The translations under genes were made by a program, and so were the position numbers. Shown one piece after another: positions 5,491 through 51,866 of a stretch of DNA of 64,000 nt (position 1 is its first letter; each line of letters begins with the position of its first letter). This DNA is from Alphaproteobacteria bacterium (GTDB taxonomy: Bacteria > Pseudomonadota > Alphaproteobacteria > Sphingomonadales > Kordiimonadaceae): assembly GCA_021774735.1 (NCBI GenBank), contig JAJFIS010000046.1:1-64000 (forward strand), read 5' to 3'. Under the pieces are notes generated by a model. It had not been told where the DNA came from, did no database searches, and saw only the letters and a list, made by a program, of their open reading frames with translations.

Positions 5491-6069
5491 ATGAAGAAAC
5501 TATTTATTATGCTGCTTTTATGGATGGGAGGGTCACTTTCTGCCACAGCTCAGGTCGATTTAAGCGGAGTTGACCCAGAGAAACTACTGGTCCTTGATGT
5601 TTCATATCCGGGCGGTAAAGGCCGTATCGTTATAAATACTTTTGAAAAATTTGCACCGGTTCATGTAGCCCGCCTGAAAGAGCTGGCCCGGCAAGAATTT
5701 TACGACGGTCAAATATTTCACCGGGTGATTGATGGCTTTATGGCCCAGACGGGCGACCCAGAGGGAACAGGGCTCGGCGGCTCAGGTCAAAATCTTCAGC
5801 CAGAATTTTCCCGCCTGCCTCATTTGCGGGGTACCTTGTCTATGGCAAGAGCCGATGAAGAAGATAGTGCAGACAGCCAGTTTTTCATTGCACTGAACCG
5901 GGTGGCTTACCTCGACAATAAGTATACGATTTGGGGCAGGGTCGTCTCAGGCATGGAACATGTTGATGCAATCCCTAAAGGGGAGCCGCCAATGACCCCA
6001 GGAAAGATTATTCGGATGCGGGTTGCCGCTGATATAGCAAATTGGCCCGCACTTACTATCCCTGAATGA
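5491..6069 (+). CDS. Exported cyclophilin-type peptidyl-prolyl isomerase
   Basis: This cyclophilin catalyses proline cis-trans isomerisation in the periplasm. Residues 1-20 form a signal peptide ending ATA, with cleavage likely before Q21. The isomerase domain has the core FHRVIDGFMAQTGDP with the catalytic arginine R78, F83 and Q86, and SQFFIAL further on. Length (192) fits a short bacterial cyclophilin plus signal. It starts 17 bp after coaD and lies 33 bp before a cytosolic paralogue, so the pair divides the two compartments. Confidence 0.92.
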   Translation: MKKLFIMLLLWMGGSLSATAQVDLSGVDPEKLLVLDVSYPGGKGRIVINTFEKFAPVHVARLKELARQEFYDGQIFHRVIDGFMAQTGDPEGTGLGGSGQNLQPEFSRLPHLRGTLSMARADEEDSADSQFFIALNRVAYLDNKYTIWGRVVSGMEHVDAIPKGEPPMTPGKIIRMRVAADIANWPALTIPE

Positions 6070-6102
6070 ATATTATTAGCACTAACCGAGAAGGAACAGG
6101 CA

Positions 6103-6579
6103 ATGACCGACCTTGAAAACAGACTTTATCTAGACATTAACACCGGCGAAGACGAAGGCCGTGTTGTCATTGATTTACGGGAAGACAAAGCCCCGGGTCA
6201 TGTGGCACGCATCAAAGAACTTGCCCGTGAAGGTTTTTATGATGGCATCATCTTTCACCGGGTTATTGATGGCTTTATGGCCCAAACGGGTGACCCAAAA
6301 GGAACCGGCATGGGCGGTTCAGGCCAAAAGCTTAAAGCAGAATTTAATGATGTTAATCACGGACGCGGGGCGGTGTCTATGGCGCGTTCGCAAAATCCAG
6401 ATAGCGGTGATAGCCAGTTTTTCATCTGCTTTGGTGATGCATCCTTCCTAGACGGCCAATATACGGTTTGGGGACAAGTGGTTGAAGGCATGGAGCATGT
6501 AGACGCTATCCCAAAGGGTGAACCACCTAGGTCACCAGGCAAAATTGCTAAAATGCAGGTGGCCGCTGACGTGGAATAA
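6103..6579 (+). CDS. Cytosolic cyclophilin-type peptidyl-prolyl isomerase
   Basis: This is the second, leaderless cyclophilin (158 residues). The catalytic core FHRVIDGFMAQTGDP is identical to that of the upstream gene, with R53, F58 and Q61, and it shares SQFFI and GMEHVDAIPKGEPP. It lacks a signal peptide and should act in the cytoplasm. A GAGAAGGAACAGG stretch just upstream serves as ribosome-binding site. The two genes look like a tandem duplication with divergence of the N-terminus. The transcript probably ends at the hairpin right after this gene. Confidence 0.93.
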   Translation: MTDLENRLYLDINTGEDEGRVVIDLREDKAPGHVARIKELAREGFYDGIIFHRVIDGFMAQTGDPKGTGMGGSGQKLKAEFNDVNHGRGAVSMARSQNPDSGDSQFFICFGDASFLDGQYTVWGQVVEGMEHVDAIPKGEPPRSPGKIAKMQVAADVE

Positions 6580-24887: not shown

Positions 24888-25178
24888 CTATAAGTGCTGT
24901 TCAAAGTCCATGGCGATACCAAGTACCCTGACGATACAGATTTTATTATCTGTGCTCCGATAAACTATTAGATGACGTTTATAAGGGATTTTTCTGTAGC
25001 CTTTACGTACAGTGCCGATATCAACGCTAATTTTAGGATTGTCGGTAATGGTGGTCAGGAAATTATTCATTTGATAAAGATAGCGATTAGCTTGCGCTTG
25101 GCCCCAAGTGTCTACGCTGTAGTGCCAAATCGCTCGCAGGTCCTCTTCCGCTTTTGTTAGTATCCGCAGGGAATACAT
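24888..25178 (-). CDS. ParE/RelE-type toxin
   Basis: This 96-residue basic protein belongs to the RelE/ParE toxin superfamily. Family signs are the start YSLRILTKAEEDLRAIWHYS, the middle NPKISVDIGTVRKGYRKIPY, and the beta-strand end HLIVYRSTDNKICIVRVLG. The sequence looks closer to ParE (gyrase-poisoning) than RelE (mRNA-cutting), but the target is not certain. It follows the antitoxin gene with one base between them, the usual order for this type of module. Confidence 0.88.
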   Translation of the reverse strand: MYSLRILTKAEEDLRAIWHYSVDTWGQAQANRYLYQMNNFLTTITDNPKISVDIGTVRKGYRKIPYKRHLIVYRSTDNKICIVRVLGIAMDFEQHL

Positions 25179-25179
25179 A

Positions 25180-25434
25180 TTATTCGGTCAATCCGGCTTC
25201 TTTTTCAGCATCTTTGATAATATTATCCATGCTTAAGGCGCGCTCCCCGCCGCTTGCTTCACCTTCGATAATTGCAGCGAGCAAGGCCTGTTCTTTTAAT
25301 TGGCGGTAGTCTTCATGCGACATAAGGATAGCGACAGCTTTCCCGTTTTTGGTAACGCTCACCGGCTCTCTTTGGGATTTCATCAAAAGTTCGCCAAATT
25401 GGTTGGAAGCCTTTGTTGCGCTAATTCGTTGCAT
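25180..25434 (-). CDS. Phd/YefM family antitoxin
   Basis: This 84-residue antitoxin has the Phd/YefM DNA-binding N-terminus: ISATKASNQFGELL, then EPVSVTKNGKAVAILMSHEDY. An acidic C-terminal tail would wrap the toxin. It is the first gene of a two-gene toxin-antitoxin operon. It would repress the operon by binding palindromes in its promoter, candidates for which lie just upstream. Confidence 0.9.
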   Translation of the reverse strand: MQRISATKASNQFGELLMKSQREPVSVTKNGKAVAILMSHEDYRQLKEQALLAAIIEGEASGGERALSMDNIIKDAEKEAGLTE

Positions 25435-26984: not shown

Positions 26985-27857
26985 ATGTCCAGCACAAATA
27001 CATCCACGGAGAAATTGTTAGAGATTATGCAGGCCCTGCGCACGCCGGGCACTGGCTGCCCGTGGGATCTGGAGCAAACATTCGCGAGCGTTTCCCCCTA
27101 CACCATTGAGGAAGCTTATGAGGTCGATGATGCCATTCAAGCGGGCGATATGGGTGCGCTGAAAAGTGAGCTCGGCGACCTGTTGTTTCAAGTGGTGTTC
27201 CACGCCCAAATGGCGGATGAGGCTGGCGAGTTTAGCTTTGGTGACGTGGTGCAAGCGGTCAGCGATAAAATGATCACCCGTCACCCCCATGTTTTTGGCG
27301 GCGATACGGGCGATAGGGGGGACGCTGAGATTAACGACGCCGCCATTAAAACCGCTGACGACCAAACTGCGGCGTGGGAGGTTCATAAGCAAAAGGAACG
27401 TGCAAATGCGGCTAAGGATAGCGGTGAGCCGGTTAGCGCCTTGGACGGAGTAGCGCTCGCCCTGCCCGCCTTGCTGCGAGCGGTGAAACTGCAAAAAAGG
27501 GCCGCCAGAATTGGCTTCGACTGGCCAGAGGTCATGATGGTGGTCGATAAAATCCGTGAGGAAAGCTTAGAGCTCGCCACCGAGATTGCCGCCATGAAGG
27601 ATGATATAGGTGACCCGGCCGCAAAGGCACGGGCTAGGGAAGAATTCGGCGACCTGATGTTTGTTCAGGCCAATTTAGCGCGGCATTTGGACATCGACCC
27701 CGAGCATGCGCTCAGAGATGCTAACGCCAAGTTCGTGCGCCGCTTTAAACGCATTGAGGCTTTGCTTATGGCGGATGGCCGCACACCCGAACAATCCGAC
27801 CTCACAGAAATGGACAACCTCTGGAACCAAGTGAAACTGGAAGAGAGAGCTGGCTAA
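26985..27857 (+). CDS. mazG: Nucleoside triphosphate pyrophosphohydrolase MazG
   Basis: MazG hydrolyses nucleoside triphosphates to monophosphates and pyrophosphate, cleaning up damaged nucleotides and lowering ppGpp signals. The 290-residue protein has two tandem MazG domains. The first carries the metal-binding E42-E43-x2-E46 and E62-x2-D65 (EEAYE, ELGDLLFQ). The second repeats the theme near residues 185-235 (REESLELATE, EEFGDLMF). The last 20 codons are duplicated 944 bp downstream, so this 3' end may have been renewed by an insertion event. Confidence 0.94.
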   Translation: MSSTNTSTEKLLEIMQALRTPGTGCPWDLEQTFASVSPYTIEEAYEVDDAIQAGDMGALKSELGDLLFQVVFHAQMADEAGEFSFGDVVQAVSDKMITRHPHVFGGDTGDRGDAEINDAAIKTADDQTAAWEVHKQKERANAAKDSGEPVSALDGVALALPALLRAVKLQKRAARIGFDWPEVMMVVDKIREESLELATEIAAMKDDIGDPAAKARAREEFGDLMFVQANLARHLDIDPEHALRDANAKFVRRFKRIEALLMADGRTPEQSDLTEMDNLWNQVKLEERAG

Positions 27858-27921
27858 TTGCTTTTAAGGGTACCGTCTGGTATCAATTTTACTCTGTGAG
27901 CATAGTTGGTTGGGGTGAAAG

Positions 27922-28743
27922 ATGGGTATAGTTGTCGTTCCTATAGCGTTTTTATGGTTTTTTGTCTCGGTTCTAATCAGTCATTTTATTGTCCGTAGAC
28001 TTTATAAAGTTAGCATTGAAAGCCAAGACCCATGGGCAGAACCCGTAGAGCCAAAATACACAATCCTTTTTAAAGTTCTATTGGTGTCATTTTTCACTAT
28101 TCCCATCTGGGATGGTTATTTGTTGAAAGGTTTGAAACCAGTTTTGTGCCTAAATGAGGGGATCGATGAATGGGACTCTATCGAGGTTGAAGGTTATTTT
28201 TCGCCGTCATTTAAATCATTAGAGCGAATAGGCCTTGAAGGCTTCAGCTATATTGAGGCACCTATCCATCAGAGGTATTTGAGTAAAATAAACAAATTAA
28301 CGTCTGGGCCGATTGAGCCTTATATTTTGAAAAGTGGTAAATTTCGCTTTGAACTTGTTTCCCACAATGATCAGCGGTGCATAACTACAAAAGATTTACT
28401 TAGGGCGTTTCTTGAACAAAACCGAAGCAATGATTTGATAAAAATTTTATCGGCGCAAATGTCAGAGACAGAATGTATGGGCATGAGCCGGATAGATAAA
28501 GTATCTGCTGATATACGGATTGTAACACAAGGAATCCCGACTGGTAGAAGGCCATATGGGGTGTATGTGTATAAATATTGGGGCGTGGTAGAAAGTAGCA
28601 ACTACCATTTTTATTCTAAATATAATAGCTACCGATTATCCAAGGGGAAAATAGATGGGTTTCTGTTTGGCGGCCGTGGGCCCAGATGCACGCCTAGGAT
28701 GACATTTCAAGAATTTGAGCATCAGGCTATTAAAGCAATCTGA
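27922..28743 (+). CDS. Hypothetical membrane-anchored protein
   Basis: I do not recognise this 273-residue protein. Two hydrophobic segments (about 3-25 and 47-65) suggest a hairpin anchor. The remaining 200 residues are polar, rich in Y, S and K, with several cysteines, and probably lie outside the cytoplasm. Base composition is more AT-rich than mazG. The stop codon lies inside a copy of the mazG 3' end, so the present C-terminus (IKAI) sits at a recombination junction and the gene may be shortened. A GGGGTG site precedes the ATG. Confidence 0.6.
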   Translation: MGIVVVPIAFLWFFVSVLISHFIVRRLYKVSIESQDPWAEPVEPKYTILFKVLLVSFFTIPIWDGYLLKGLKPVLCLNEGIDEWDSIEVEGYFSPSFKSLERIGLEGFSYIEAPIHQRYLSKINKLTSGPIEPYILKSGKFRFELVSHNDQRCITTKDLLRAFLEQNRSNDLIKILSAQMSETECMGMSRIDKVSADIRIVTQGIPTGRRPYGVYVYKYWGVVESSNYHFYSKYNSYRLSKGKIDGFLFGGRGPRCTPRMTFQEFEHQAIKAI

Positions 28744-28798
28744 CCTCACCGAAATGGATGACCTCTGGAACCAAGTGAAGGATGAGGAGAGAGGCTGA
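28736..28798 (+). pseudogene. Duplicated 3' end of mazG
   Basis: This 63-bp stretch repeats the end of mazG (27792-27857). In translation it gives DLTEMDDLWNQVKDEERG then stop, against DLTEMDNLWNQVKLEERAG in mazG. The first 44 bases match at 40 positions, and 19 bases are identical (27817-27835 and 28761-28779). It has no start of its own. It looks like the displaced original tail of mazG left when the segment carrying the hypothetical gene came in, or the decayed remainder of a tandem duplication. Confidence 0.8.
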
Positions 28799-28831: not shown

Positions 28832-29314
28832 TTAAAGACAATCTTTATTTTTAGTGACTAAGGCAAGTCTAAATGGTTCATTTCGCTTGGCATGAAATCC
28901 CTGAGATCCAAAATTGGCACTGACACAAACAAGGGTGCCATTTCCATATTTTCCATTGGAATAGGATGAATAGTGGGGAAAATATACTTGCCCTGCAAAG
29001 GGTGCATAAAGGGCAATTTCGTTGAGCATGCTTAACATGACAAAAAAAGTCTGGCGCTGATTGCTCTTGTCAATGAAAGTGATGAGGTAATATGGCATAT
29101 AGCTGTCTTTATCAGGAAAACGTTCGTGATAAATCTTCACTTCATCAGCGCCAGTCGTTTTTTTCAAAAAATTACATTCAATATTTTCTGCTTCACACAG
29201 TTTGAAATCCTTTGCCAGAAGGGCTTTGTCATATGCATTGGTTCCGTTGAAGCCAATGAGCATATAAATCAGACCAACAACAATTAAATTTAAACCTAAA
29301 AATCGTTTTCTCAT
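28832..29314 (-). CDS. Hypothetical protein with one N-terminal membrane segment
   Basis: The 160-residue protein starts with a membrane segment or uncleaved signal (about residues 6-24) followed by a polar domain likely in the periplasm. The domain contains LCEAENIECNFLKKTTG and a C-terminal LVTKNKDCL with scattered cysteines. I do not recognise a family. It starts 3 bp after the stop of the next upstream gene, so the two form an operon. It lies in the unknown-gene block behind mazG. Confidence 0.6.
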   Translation of the reverse strand: MRKRFLGLNLIVVGLIYMLIGFNGTNAYDKALLAKDFKLCEAENIECNFLKKTTGADEVKIYHERFPDKDSYMPYYLITFIDKSNQRQTFFVMLSMLNEIALYAPFAGQVYFPHYSSYSNGKYGNGTLVCVSANFGSQGFHAKRNEPFRLALVTKNKDCL

Positions 29315-29317
29315 CCG

Positions 29318-30055
29318 TCAGTCCTTCTCTGGCATGAGGTTTTCGATGTAGCTTTCGTGCTCGAGATTCTTAATCAAAAAGGAATCTATCGCTGCTGCGA
29401 GGCGATCGGCATTCTGATCCCAATTATCAAAATCGCTCTGCGGAAAATGCGCTGTAATCAGGAACCCTTTTTTTGTTTGAATTTGAATCATGCATTTATC
29501 CGGACGGGAGCTGCAGTTGGCCGAAAATGCTGCAGGATGAGCATCAGATCGCCTTCGATAGAGTTTTATTTTACCACTCTCCAAGCCGTGCTCCCAGACA
29601 TACCACCCATATTTACTTTTTCTGATTGTCCGATTGCTATTTTCCCCACAGCGATCAGCCTTACAGTTTAAAAAAGTGCCTTCTTGATTTTTAATAAATA
29701 CTGGAAGAGCAATCGACCAACTTACCCGTGTCCATCCATATGAGCTGCCTGAACGGCTCCGCTCTTTACCTGACTGTTCAAATTCCGGGTAATTAAGTAA
29801 AATATGTGCTCTTTCCCTTTTATGAGGATTTTCTGGAGTTCCTTCCGCGTAAAGAGCTTTAAATCTTGATTGGACTAAATTCATCGGGATTTTTATAATT
29901 TTATTTTCGAAGGGACCAACTAATTCTATTGTCACAAATTGTGGCAGGAACAATTCGTGGATATCGTCTTTGAAAAATAGATAAAGGCTTCCAAAAACTA
30001 AAATTGTTAGAATTTTATGCTTTAATATGATCCCAAAATACCGCTCTATCATCAT
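29318..30055 (-). CDS. Hypothetical membrane-anchored protein
   Basis: I do not recognise this 245-residue protein. An N-terminal membrane segment (about 13-28) is followed by a domain with several cysteines (LNCKADRCGEN near 128-138, ANCSSRPDKC near 177-186) that may form disulfides in the periplasm. Late on comes the hydrophobic GFLITAHFPQSDFDNW. Two adjacent ATG codons are possible starts. It is the first gene of a pair with the 160-residue protein. Confidence 0.6.
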   Translation of the reverse strand: MMIERYFGIILKHKILTILVFGSLYLFFKDDIHELFLPQFVTIELVGPFENKIIKIPMNLVQSRFKALYAEGTPENPHKRERAHILLNYPEFEQSGKERSRSGSSYGWTRVSWSIALPVFIKNQEGTFLNCKADRCGENSNRTIRKSKYGWYVWEHGLESGKIKLYRRRSDAHPAAFSANCSSRPDKCMIQIQTKKGFLITAHFPQSDFDNWDQNADRLAAAIDSFLIKNLEHESYIENLMPEKD

Positions 30056-30261: not shown

Positions 30262-31686
30262 TTATCCCTCGCCCTCACCCTCGTCCACTGTTGGCAGTTG
30301 CCGCATGAAGCGGACGCCGGGGCCACTGACGAAGCGGGCGTAGGTGTCTTCGCTCATGGAAGCTTTGAGGGTCATGCCATCTTCATTGGCGCCCTCTTCC
30401 AATATTTCGCAGTTGTTATGCAGCCAAGCGATGGCGGCACCGTGCGCAAAGGGTATGCAAATGTCATATTCGCGGTCCTGCGCGCCGAGCACATTATCGA
30501 TAAGCTCTAGCAGTGGCTCGCAGCCGAGGCCAGTGAGGCCCGATACCATTATCTGGTCGTCGTCGCGTTCGCTGTTACCGCTGAGCAGCTCGAAAGCTTC
30601 CTCGTCCAACAGGTCAGATTTGTTCAGCGCCTCTAACATCGGGGTCTCGCTATCACCAGTTTCCAAGCTCACACCCAGGTCGGTCAGCACGTCCAGCACA
30701 TCTTGTTTTTGGGCTTCGCTGTCCGGGTGGACCATATCGCGGATATGAACGATCAAGCTGGCTTCCAACACTTCCTCGAGCGTCGCGCGGAAAGCGGCGA
30801 TAAGCGTTGTCGGCAAATTGGAGACAAAACCAACGGTGTCAGACAGGATGACCTTGCGGCCACTGGGCAGCTCGACCGAGCGCATGGTGGGGTCAAGGGT
30901 GGCGAACAGCATATCTTGGGCCATTACGTCAGCGCCCGATAATTTGTTGAACAGCGTTGACTTGCCCGCATTGGTATAGCCAACAAAGGCAATGACGGGG
31001 GTGTTAGTTTTTTGGCGACGCTTGCGCTGCAAACGTCTGGTCTGCGTAACGCTCTCTAATTGCCGTGTGATACTGGTGATACGCTCAGAAATGATGCGGC
31101 GGTCATTTTCAATTTGGGTTTCGCCCGGGCCGCCCATAAAGCCGTGGCCACCACGTTGGCGTTCCAAGTGGGTCCAGGATCGCACCAAGCGCCCTTTTTG
31201 GTAATTAAGATGCGCAAGCTCAACCTGCAACTCGCCTTCCTTGGTGCTGGCGCGGGCGCCGAATATCTCGAGAATCAACGCCGTGCGGTCAATGACCTTA
31301 GCGCCAATTTCGGCCTCTAAATTACGTTGCTGAATGGGGCTGAGCTCGCAGTCAAAAACGATCAGGTCAATCGCGTCCGCTTTAACGCGTTCACCCAAGT
31401 CTTCGATCCAGCCTTTGCCAATGTAGGTAGCGGCGTGAATACGGCGCAGGCTAATAAGCTCGCCGCCGACCACATCCACATCAATGGCTTCAGCGAGGCC
31501 AATAGCTTCCGCCAGCCGCGCATCCGGGCTGCGCAGAGGCACATCAGATGCCCGCGCTTTGACAAAGGGATGCACCACAAGCAATTTCTGCTTGGTCTCT
31601 TGGTCCGATAGATAGGCTAGGCCATCAGTGGACCAGCCCTTCCCTTTATGGTCAAGGTCGCTCGCTCCATTCTTCGGATCAGACAA
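30262..31686 (-). CDS. hflX: GTPase HflX
   Basis: HflX is a ribosome-binding GTPase that splits or rescues ribosomes under stress. The 474-residue protein has the N-terminal HflX domain. The glycine-rich linker GGHGFMGGPGETQIENDRR is followed by the G domain with G1 GYTNAGKSTLFN and G3 DTVGFVSNLP. The start is a TTG two bases after the hfq stop, preceded by GAGGA at the end of hfq, so translation is coupled to hfq. The hfq-hflX order is conserved in proteobacteria. Confidence 0.96.
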   Translation of the reverse strand: MSDPKNGASDLDHKGKGWSTDGLAYLSDQETKQKLLVVHPFVKARASDVPLRSPDARLAEAIGLAEAIDVDVVGGELISLRRIHAATYIGKGWIEDLGERVKADAIDLIVFDCELSPIQQRNLEAEIGAKVIDRTALILEIFGARASTKEGELQVELAHLNYQKGRLVRSWTHLERQRGGHGFMGGPGETQIENDRRIISERITSITRQLESVTQTRRLQRKRRQKTNTPVIAFVGYTNAGKSTLFNKLSGADVMAQDMLFATLDPTMRSVELPSGRKVILSDTVGFVSNLPTTLIAAFRATLEEVLEASLIVHIRDMVHPDSEAQKQDVLDVLTDLGVSLETGDSETPMLEALNKSDLLDEEAFELLSGNSERDDDQIMVSGLTGLGCEPLLELIDNVLGAQDREYDICIPFAHGAAIAWLHNNCEILEEGANEDGMTLKASMSEDTYARFVSGPGVRFMRQLPTVDEGEGEG

Positions 31687-48971: not shown

Positions 48972-50222
48972 CTAAATCAGCATCGTGAGTGGGTTTTCTA
49001 AGAAGCCTTTGAATGCTTTTAAGAATTCAGCCCCCACAGCGCCGTCAATCGCTCGGTGATCACAGCTCATGGTGCATGTCATGACCGTGGCAACGGTAAG
49101 CGCGCCGTCAGCGCCGACAATAGGCCGTTTCTCACCCGCCCCAATGGCTAAAATAGCGCCTTCAGGTGGGTTTATAACGGCGGAAAATTCACGGATGCCG
49201 AACATACCAAGGTTGGATATAGAGAATGTACCGCCTGAATATTCATCCGGGGTCAGTTTGCCGTCCTTTGCTCTGCCTGCAAGGTCGCGGACCTCAGTGC
49301 TGATCGCCGACAAGCTTTTGACGCAGGCACCACGCACAACAGGGGTGATGAGGCCGCCTTCAATGGCGACAGCGACGGAAATGTCCGCGCGCTCATACCA
49401 GCGCATGGTGTCGCCCGCGAATTGAACATTGGCAGCAGGCACTTTTTTGAGCGCCATAGCGGTTGCCTTAATAACAAAATCATTAACACTGATTTTAATG
49501 CCCTCGTCGGCTAGCCCGGCATTAATGTCAGCGCGCGCTGCGAGCAATTTATCAAGCTGGCAATCCACTGTCAGGTAGAAATGCGGCACTGATTGTTTCG
49601 ATTCAGTGAGGCGGCGAGCGATAGTTTTGCGCATGTTGGACAAACGCTCTTCACGGTAAGGCGCATCGCCAACGGCGGCTGTGGAAGCGGCGGCCATCGG
49701 TGCGGCGGCCGATGGACTTGCATAGCTTTCAATGTCGCGCTTGATGATACGTCCATAAGGTCCTGTGCCTGTTACTGTTTTAAGATCAATGCCTGCACCC
49801 GCAGCCAAACGCTTGGCAAGCGGTGAGGCTTTAATGCGGCTGTCAGATGTCATAGTATCTTTAGGCGAAGGCGCAACAGCTTTTAGCGGTGTTGGCGCTG
49901 TTTCAACTGCTTTTGGTGCTGCCTCAGGCGAGGCGGCAACGACTTTTGGTGCTTCTTTCAAAGCAGCAGCAACATCTTCGTCCTCTTCGGCCAAAATGGC
50001 AATTATAGTCCCCACGGGCACATCATCGGTGCCATCCGCAACCAGCAATTTTGCCACAACACCATCATCAATGCTCTCGACTTCCATCGTTGCCTTGTCG
50101 GTCTCAATTTCAGCGATAATATCACCGTTGGCAACGCTGTCGCCTTCCTTCACCATCCATTTGGCGAGGGTCCCTGTTTCCATCGTCGGCGATAATGCCG
50201 GCATAAATATCTCGATCGCCAT
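48972..50222 (-). CDS. pdhC: Dihydrolipoamide acetyltransferase (E2) of pyruvate dehydrogenase
   Basis: E2 forms the core of the complex and transfers acetyl to CoA. The 416-residue protein has one lipoyl domain (1-78, lipoylated K43 in [11 protein letters not shown]) and an alanine/proline-rich linker. The peripheral-subunit-binding domain lies near 125-160 ([17 protein letters not shown]) and the catalytic domain ends with DHRAIDG. Only one lipoyl domain is present because another sits on E1-beta. A small membrane-protein gene separates it from pdhB. Confidence 0.97.
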
Positions 50223-50251
50223 ATCTCTACCTTTGTTAGCGGGTTAGACTG

Positions 50252-50506
50252 CTAATCCATTAACCCAAAGAATTTTAAAATATAAAGAAGCAAAGCAAAA
50301 CCAACGAATACCAAAATGATATTTAGAGGAAATATACATAAAACCGCAATTATCCTATCTTCCCATTTTTCACTTGAACCACTTTTTAAACGCACTGTGC
50401 GAAAATCACCCCTACACACCATATTGGACCATCTGTGCCCATACCGTCGCCAAGCCTGTCGTATTTTGCGTCTTCTAATCGCTAACTCCTTATTGCGTAT
50501 AAGCAA
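50252..50506 (-). CDS. Small membrane protein inside the pdh operon
   Basis: This 84-residue protein is not part of the usual pdh operon. The N-terminal half is strongly basic ([20 protein letters not shown]) and the C-terminal half is one membrane segment (about 53-80, [20 protein letters not shown]). The start overlaps the end of pdhB by 17 bp in another frame, and pdhC begins 29 bp later, so it is probably translated from the same mRNA. I know no family. It could tether something to the membrane, or be a non-functional frame, although its composition is protein-like and it fills the gap exactly. Confidence 0.55.
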
Positions 50507-51866
50507 CCTGCTTCACTGCTGCCATGATGCCATCCGCGTTAATCAGCGCTGCTTTTTCCAAATTATTGGCGTATGGCAACGGCACATCAACATTATTTAC
50601 CCGGGTCACTGGCGCGTCTAAATGATCAAAAGCATGCTCCATCAGCTGGGCAGATATCTCAGCTGCTACGCCGCACTGGGGCCAGCCTTCTTCGGCGACA
50701 ACAACGCGGTTGGTTTTCTGGACGCTCTCGATAACCGTATCCATATCAAGCGGGCGAATGGTGCGCAGGTCGATAACTTCGGCGCTAATGCCCTCACCGG
50801 CCAAAGCCTCAGCCGCTTTAATGCTTTCACCCACAGCAATAGAATAGGTAACGATGGTAACGTCACTGCCCTCAATCATGATACGCGCCTTGCCGATGGG
50901 CAGAGTGTGGTCTGGCAAGTCAGGCACTTCAAAGCTTTCGCCGTATAGCAGCTCGTTTTCCAAGAATACCACCGGATTGGGGCTTTGGATGGCGGCTTTC
51001 AGCAAGCCTTTAGCGTCAGCGGCGTCATAAGGCGCAATAACCGTTAAGCCCGGCACATTGGCGTACCACGGAGCATAGTTTTGGCTATGCTGTGCGCCGA
51101 CGCGGCTGGCGGCACCATTGGGACCCCTAAATACGATAGGGCTGGTAACTTGTCCGCCGGACATATAGCGAGTTTTAGCCGAACTATTTATAATGTGATC
51201 AATGGCTTGCATGGCGAAGTTAAAGGTCATGAATTCCACGATAGGTTTGAGCCCAGCAAATGCGGCACCGGCTGCGAGACCAGCAAAACCATGCTCGGTT
51301 ATCGGGGTATCGATAACGCGTTTGCCACCAAATTCAGCGAGCAGCCCTTGGGTGACTTTGTAAGCCCCTTCATATTCAGCCACTTCTTCGCCGATGACAA
51401 AAACATCACCGTCTTTGCGCATTTCTTCCGCCATGGCATCGCGCAGGGCTTCCCGCACGGTTAGAGATACCATATCAGTGCCCGCAGGTACCTCCGGGTC
51501 ATCGGCTACAACCATTTGGGCGGCGGCTGGTGCAGTTTCAGCAGCTGTATCAGCAACAATTTCAACTGGCGTTTCAACTTTAGCTACTGGCGTGCTTGAA
51601 ACTTCTATGTTCGCTGCATCTTCGCCTTCCTCTGCGATAAGCGCTATAACGGTGCCAACCAGCACATCATCCGTGCCATCCGTGACCAAAATGCTGGCAA
51701 CAGTGCCCTCGTCGATGCTCTCAACTTCCATCGTTGCCTTATCGGTCTCAATTTCAGCGATAATATCGCCGGATGTAATGGTATCACCGACGGCCACCAG
51801 CCATTTAGCTAGCGTGCCCTTTTCCATTGTTGGCGAAAGCGCCGGCATGGTAATTTCAATAGCCAT
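50490..51866 (-). CDS. pdhB: Pyruvate dehydrogenase E1 beta subunit with fused lipoyl domain
   Basis: E1-beta pairs with E1-alpha to decarboxylate pyruvate. The 458-residue protein has an N-terminal lipoyl domain (1-78, lipoyl site K43) and a linker. The transketolase-type E1-beta part follows from about residue 130 ([33 protein letters not shown]). This lipoyl fusion is known from several alphaproteobacteria. It follows pdhA by 19 bp. Its lipoyl domain is very close to that of pdhC, even at DNA level. Confidence 0.97.

Follow-up and report, generated by a model that had tools for sequence, protein, structure and literature searches.

Organization of the mazG locus

In the window, by which we mean the entire 64-kb stretch of DNA analysed, an intact mazG gene is separated from hflX by 2.4 kb of AT-rich DNA that holds three orphan genes, g1, g2 and g3 (Table 1). 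The window genome comprises 2.8 Mb, and the nearest named mazG is that of Kordiimonas. In relatives from the same family, hflX and mazG converge, with a distance of -4 to approximately 60 bp between the two stop codons in almost every locus containing both genes, so that the insert in the window interrupts an otherwise tight junction. Only one of the 30 family genomes, that of the window, encodes g1 or carries a second mazG tail; the 29 relatives, which come from other genera, all lack g1 and possess a single tail. Thus, the outcomes that the earlier note had named as contradicting its reading, relatives with g1 or relatives with two tails, were not encountered in the family. In two family genomes (G016 and G018; L006 2353-2853 and L011 2300-2722, both loci reverse-complemented), one unrelated gene is present between mazG and hflX, with no second tail.

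Table 1 Features of the mazG-hflX region in the window
Feature	Position	Strand	Basis
mazG, intact, ends in tail copy 1	26985..27857	+	Pfam MazG, E 1.7e-35; orthologues in 60/61 genomes
Tail copy 1, terminal 66 nt of working mazG including stop	27792..27857	+	Repeat comparison
19-bp core in copy 1 (ACCTCTGGAACCAAGTGAA)	27811..27837, approximate	+	Read from sequence
g1, orphan, 273 codons, GC ~0.40, hydrophobic N-terminal helices, stop within copy 2	27922..28743	+	Sequence; no relatives found
Tail copy 2, apparent displaced mazG 3' end, no start, in frame to own stop	28736..28798	+	Repeat comparison; mazG C-terminus profile
g2, AT-rich orphan	28832..29314	-	ORF list, Pfam/PHROG searches, GC
g3, AT-rich orphan	29318..30055	-	ORF list, Pfam/PHROG searches, GC
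hflX, directly abuts mazG in relatives	30262..31686	-	Family comparison, Pfam

The end of mazG recurs on the far side of g1 as a direct repeat (27792-27849 versus 28736-28793; 58 nt, 49 of 58 bases the same, 84% identity) with a spacing of 944 bp and a core of 19 identical bp, ACCTCTGGAACCAAGTGAA. In 30 simulated 64-kb windows, the best match of the 58-mer reached 28 to 32 identities, compared to the 49 observed, which confirms the claim of the earlier note that the mazG tail is found again at this distance. At spacings within 12 kb, this is the sole direct repeat found in the window besides two ordinary gene or domain duplications. The latter (5653-6569 and 49973-51866) consist of peptidyl-prolyl isomerase genes in tandem and a pair of lipoyl domains encoded by the pyruvate dehydrogenase genes. 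Through copy 1, the MazG protein ends in ...QSDLTEMDNLWNQVKLEERAG followed by the stop, and copy 2 translates in the same frame as QSDLTEMDDLWNQVKDEERG, with the stop, at 28798, one codon earlier; copy 2 was recovered independently by a profile of MazG C-termini (E 4.7e-6). The stop codon of g1 (CAATC-TGA) lies inside the first bases of copy 2, in agreement with the earlier observation that the enclosed gene terminates at the junction.

The insert has a low GC content (0.40 vs 0.56). Searches of Pfam, PHROG, phage, plasmid and PDB collections detected no relatives of g1, no convincing ones were found among 385 genomes of the class, and the predicted structure of its product has a mean pLDDT of 39. 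We considered and rejected a viral origin for g1, with just two matches, of 29 residues, that we take to be due to chance, and for g3, which has no viral match; g3 also lacks relatives among 101 related genomes. Together, g2 and g3 probably represent an older insertion layer at the mazG/hflX junction; no duplicated hflX tail was found near them (28832-30055). Pfam detected no integrase among the insert genes, no Rfam match was obtained at the locus, and the results of the promoter and terminator scan were close to chance. Three tyrosine recombinase genes, one of the phage-integrase type and two Xer-like by size, are present in the window genome, all on other contigs. The phage-type gene (L122 241-1338, contig C43) is located at the very start of its contig and adjoins phoB-phoU-pst, so that any element it belonged to is cut by the contig end. 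Elsewhere in the window, a toxin-antitoxin pair is encoded on the minus strand (24888-25434), with a ParE-like toxin (E 2.3e-13) and a Phd/YefM-like antitoxin (E 3.2e-12).

Two apparently once-functional tails

Both tails were once under coding constraint. The copies differ by 9 substitutions over 18 codons, which yield only 2 amino acid differences and no stop codons. Given 9 random substitutions, at most 2 amino acid changes without a stop occurred in 0.03-0.07% of neutral simulations, with either copy as the start (P < 0.001), under a simulation that is short, at 18 codons, and assumes that every change fell on one copy. Because the differences are mostly synonymous and the frames are open, the copies look like two once-functional mazG alleles rather than a gene end and its decayed tandem copy. 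Copy 2 has no start codon, which makes selection for a mazG function unlikely at present, and the divergence therefore probably arose mostly while both copies ended working mazG genes in separate lineages. The two copies are equally distant from the tails of relatives, with a mean identity of 31.4 and 31.6 of 51 bases, and the comparison thus favours neither copy as the tail of the uninterrupted state, which the earlier note had expected to be the downstream one. A single crossover within the core would make each of them a hybrid, which may explain why neither looks more native than the other.

Similar arrangements in other Alphaproteobacteria

The same architecture, with different cargo, is present in three further Alphaproteobacteria, namely, Pelagibius marinus, the metagenome-assembled genome G409 and the genome G488, the latter two of which are draft assemblies. 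The case of P. marinus came from a comparison of mazG tails with their own downstream DNA across the collected loci, which yielded this one further strong case. In this genome (L062), an MFS gene separates the intact mazG tail from a second one, which includes an in-frame stop codon. The second tail adjoins a DUF2938 gene, as does the single mazG in the relative G486, and thus occupies the apparent ancestral junction. Compared with another relative, G485, the upstream tail has diverged no further than the rest of the gene, which counts against the displacement scenario proposed below; the incoming allele would have been a close one, or the crossover would have occurred late in the gene. In two other relatives (G487 and G484; L178 and L179), a 1547-codon RTX-like ORF and a 415-codon ORF are found between mazG and DUF2938, with no second tails.

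A profile of MazG C-termini run over the 385 genomes of the class, with most genomes that had more than one match listed again, revealed one more pair of matches near each other, in G409. Among the matches listed, the count is at least 2 of the 277 genomes of the class with any match, a lower bound also because displaced tails of fewer than approximately 20 codons escape the 46-residue profile. Other genomes with a second match were dismissed: in G380, the match is within the same ORF; G292 carries two full mazG copies on separate contigs; and the second tail in G503 belongs to a second mazG with the same neighbour, which likely reflects a mixed assembly. The integrase-bearing insertions at mazG that the earlier note had suggested looking for in other genomes did not turn up in this survey, which was not designed for long elements.

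The constant gene body with an exchanged 3' end is clear in G409 (L174 131-2749), where a chimeric mazG is followed by a GNAT-ASCH gene and then by the native mazG 3' end. Codons 1-165 of this mazG have a GC content of 0.695 and 78% identity to the relative L152; the last 101 codons (166-266) are AT-rich (GC 0.48) and are at most 46% identical to any sequence compared. The GNAT-ASCH gene has a GC content of 0.42, and the downstream 3' end returns to 0.715, with 76% identity to L152. The same FDW motif marks both junctions. This mazG is an unmistakable chimera of a native, GC-rich front and a foreign, AT-rich end. In G488, the arrangement spans two contigs: the terminal 99 bp of one recur without a mismatch at the start of the other (reverse strand). 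Joined through this overlap, they read mazG, RTX-like genes, a remnant of the mazG tail (70% over 164 bp), a further RTX-like gene and a DUF2938-like gene. The insertion points vary, being located approximately 66 (window), 116 (P. marinus), 190 (G488) and 306 (G409) nt upstream of the mazG stop, and an integrase was seen at none of these four loci.

Proposed displacement of the mazG 3' end and alternative explanations

We give roughly an even chance to the scenario in which the resident mazG received a foreign segment, consisting of the mazG 3' end of a related allele and the orphan gene g1, whereby the old 3' end was shifted 944 bp downstream, behind g1. Under this scenario, the working mazG would have retained a complete reading frame, with all or part of the incoming tail, so that copy 1 is possibly in part incoming sequence and copy 2 would be the native end. 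The part of the earlier note that had the insert supply a new mazG tail is well supported and likely right, given that this pattern is seen directly in G409. All four loci are compatible with an old 3' end that was moved behind a new one and the foreign DNA accompanying it. The likeliest route would be that a small donor DNA, circular or circularised, entered the resident mazG through a single crossover performed by the recombination enzymes of the cell, and this crossover probably would fall inside the 19-bp identical core, the likeliest zone being that in copy 1. Such a crossover of a circular intermediate has been proposed for the displacement of rhs tips (PMC2935791), and linear DNA that circularises and then enters via a single crossing-over has been documented in Escherichia coli (PMC3240628). 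The coincidence of the two junctions, which is clear in G409 and consistent in the window, points to one crossover with a circle, via either host recombination or an integrase acting from elsewhere, and the lack of integrases at the loci together with the scattered positions favours the host route. The short homology, 58 bp at 84% identity with 19 identical bp in the window and shorter in G409, argues against this route, being poor for RecA. Also counting against displacement by such a donor, no donor molecule was found in the plasmid and phage collections searched. The plasmid matches to the tail came mostly from records of very large size and resemble normal, complete mazG genes; those in phages were less than 52% identical. 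The insert DNA had no match among plasmids, and the full mazG had no relative among viral contigs.

The arrangement is, at the same time, the textbook outcome of site-specific integration, whereby a small or remnant element, its tyrosine recombinase lost or remote, would have entered the 3' end of mazG and restored the gene end, with the two tails corresponding to attL and attR. The duplicated core that flanks the insert is a trait of att sites, and the 19 identical bp are of the right size; the junctions in G409 coincide without loss; and the phage-integrase-type recombinase of the window genome could have acted from another contig. However, no integrase was observed at the four loci, the four different entry points in mazG are not those of one attachment site, the survey of the class, not being designed for long elements, showed no integrase-bearing element at mazG, and no attachment site at this gene was found in the literature searched. 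We consider this scenario unlikely. Thus, of the att-like insertion scar proposed in the earlier note, the insertion and the derivation of the second 3' end from a functional allele are upheld, but the att component is not. Homology-facilitated illegitimate recombination of a linear fragment, attached by homology within mazG at one end and by microhomology within the old tail at the other, appears to us improbable. Its documented products are foreign inserts of approximately 1 kb with a one-sided homology anchor (PMC3240628), it has already been proposed for displacement scars of type VI secretion systems (T6SS) (PMC5361080), and the stop codon of g1 comes from copy 2, as though the join had cut this gene. 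Yet, resident DNA of similar size is usually deleted in such events, which are rare in experiments, and the two joins need not coincide, although they do in G409. Finally, a tandem duplication of the tail of mazG itself, later split by g1 and decayed, was the alternative offered in the earlier note. The residues DLTEMD and LWNQVK, which are uncommon in relatives, occur in both copies and point to one lineage, but copy 2, which has no start and is hardly selectable now, retains an open frame and differs from copy 1 mainly at synonymous positions, the arrival of g1 would take a separate event, and the two 3' ends in G409 plainly differ in origin. This explanation is disfavoured by the synonymous bias and the open frames, and we regard it as very improbable.

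Relationship to known systems

If the mazG 3' end was indeed displaced, the closest known process appears to be the C-terminal (tip) displacement of rhs genes (Jackson et al. 2009, PMC2935791), in which a new 3' end is inserted along with the DNA that follows it, the former 3' end persists farther downstream as a silent fragment, and the proposed route is a single crossover with a circle that involves no integrase. A displaced 3' end downstream of the insert, a trait of this type of displacement, is present in the window. Unlike rhs, mazG encodes a housekeeping enzyme, and what it receives is another mazG end rather than a new toxin tip; furthermore, the passenger genes are unrelated to each other, and long tip arrays were not seen. 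Integration at the 3' ends of housekeeping genes, such as that of SGI1 at trmE (PMC8409611), similarly flanks the insert with two copies of the gene end and restores the reading frame. In contrast to SGI1, the 0.9-kb insert at mazG has no integrase, mobilisation genes or fixed position. The products of homology-facilitated illegitimate recombination (PMC3240628) and of the displacement of T6SS effector-immunity genes (PMC5361080) share with the mazG scar the anchoring of approximately 1 kb of foreign DNA to one gene and the retention of old 3' material downstream; the G409 scar differs from those of illegitimate recombination in that its junctions coincide.

The event is of a known kind in an unusual place, and its interest is raised by the recurrence at mazG; a limited search of the open-access literature found no earlier report of such displacement at this gene. 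On the strength of the four loci, we suggest only tentatively, as a generalization that is doubtful at this stage, that tiny, integrase-free units made up of a mazG 3' end and one or a few passenger genes repeatedly land at the mazG 3' end in Alphaproteobacteria, in a manner similar to rhs. If this is true, an rhs-like displacement would act on a housekeeping enzyme and import unrelated genes. The displaced gene tail offers a readable footprint of the apparently integrase-free entry of single foreign genes between closely spaced convergent genes.
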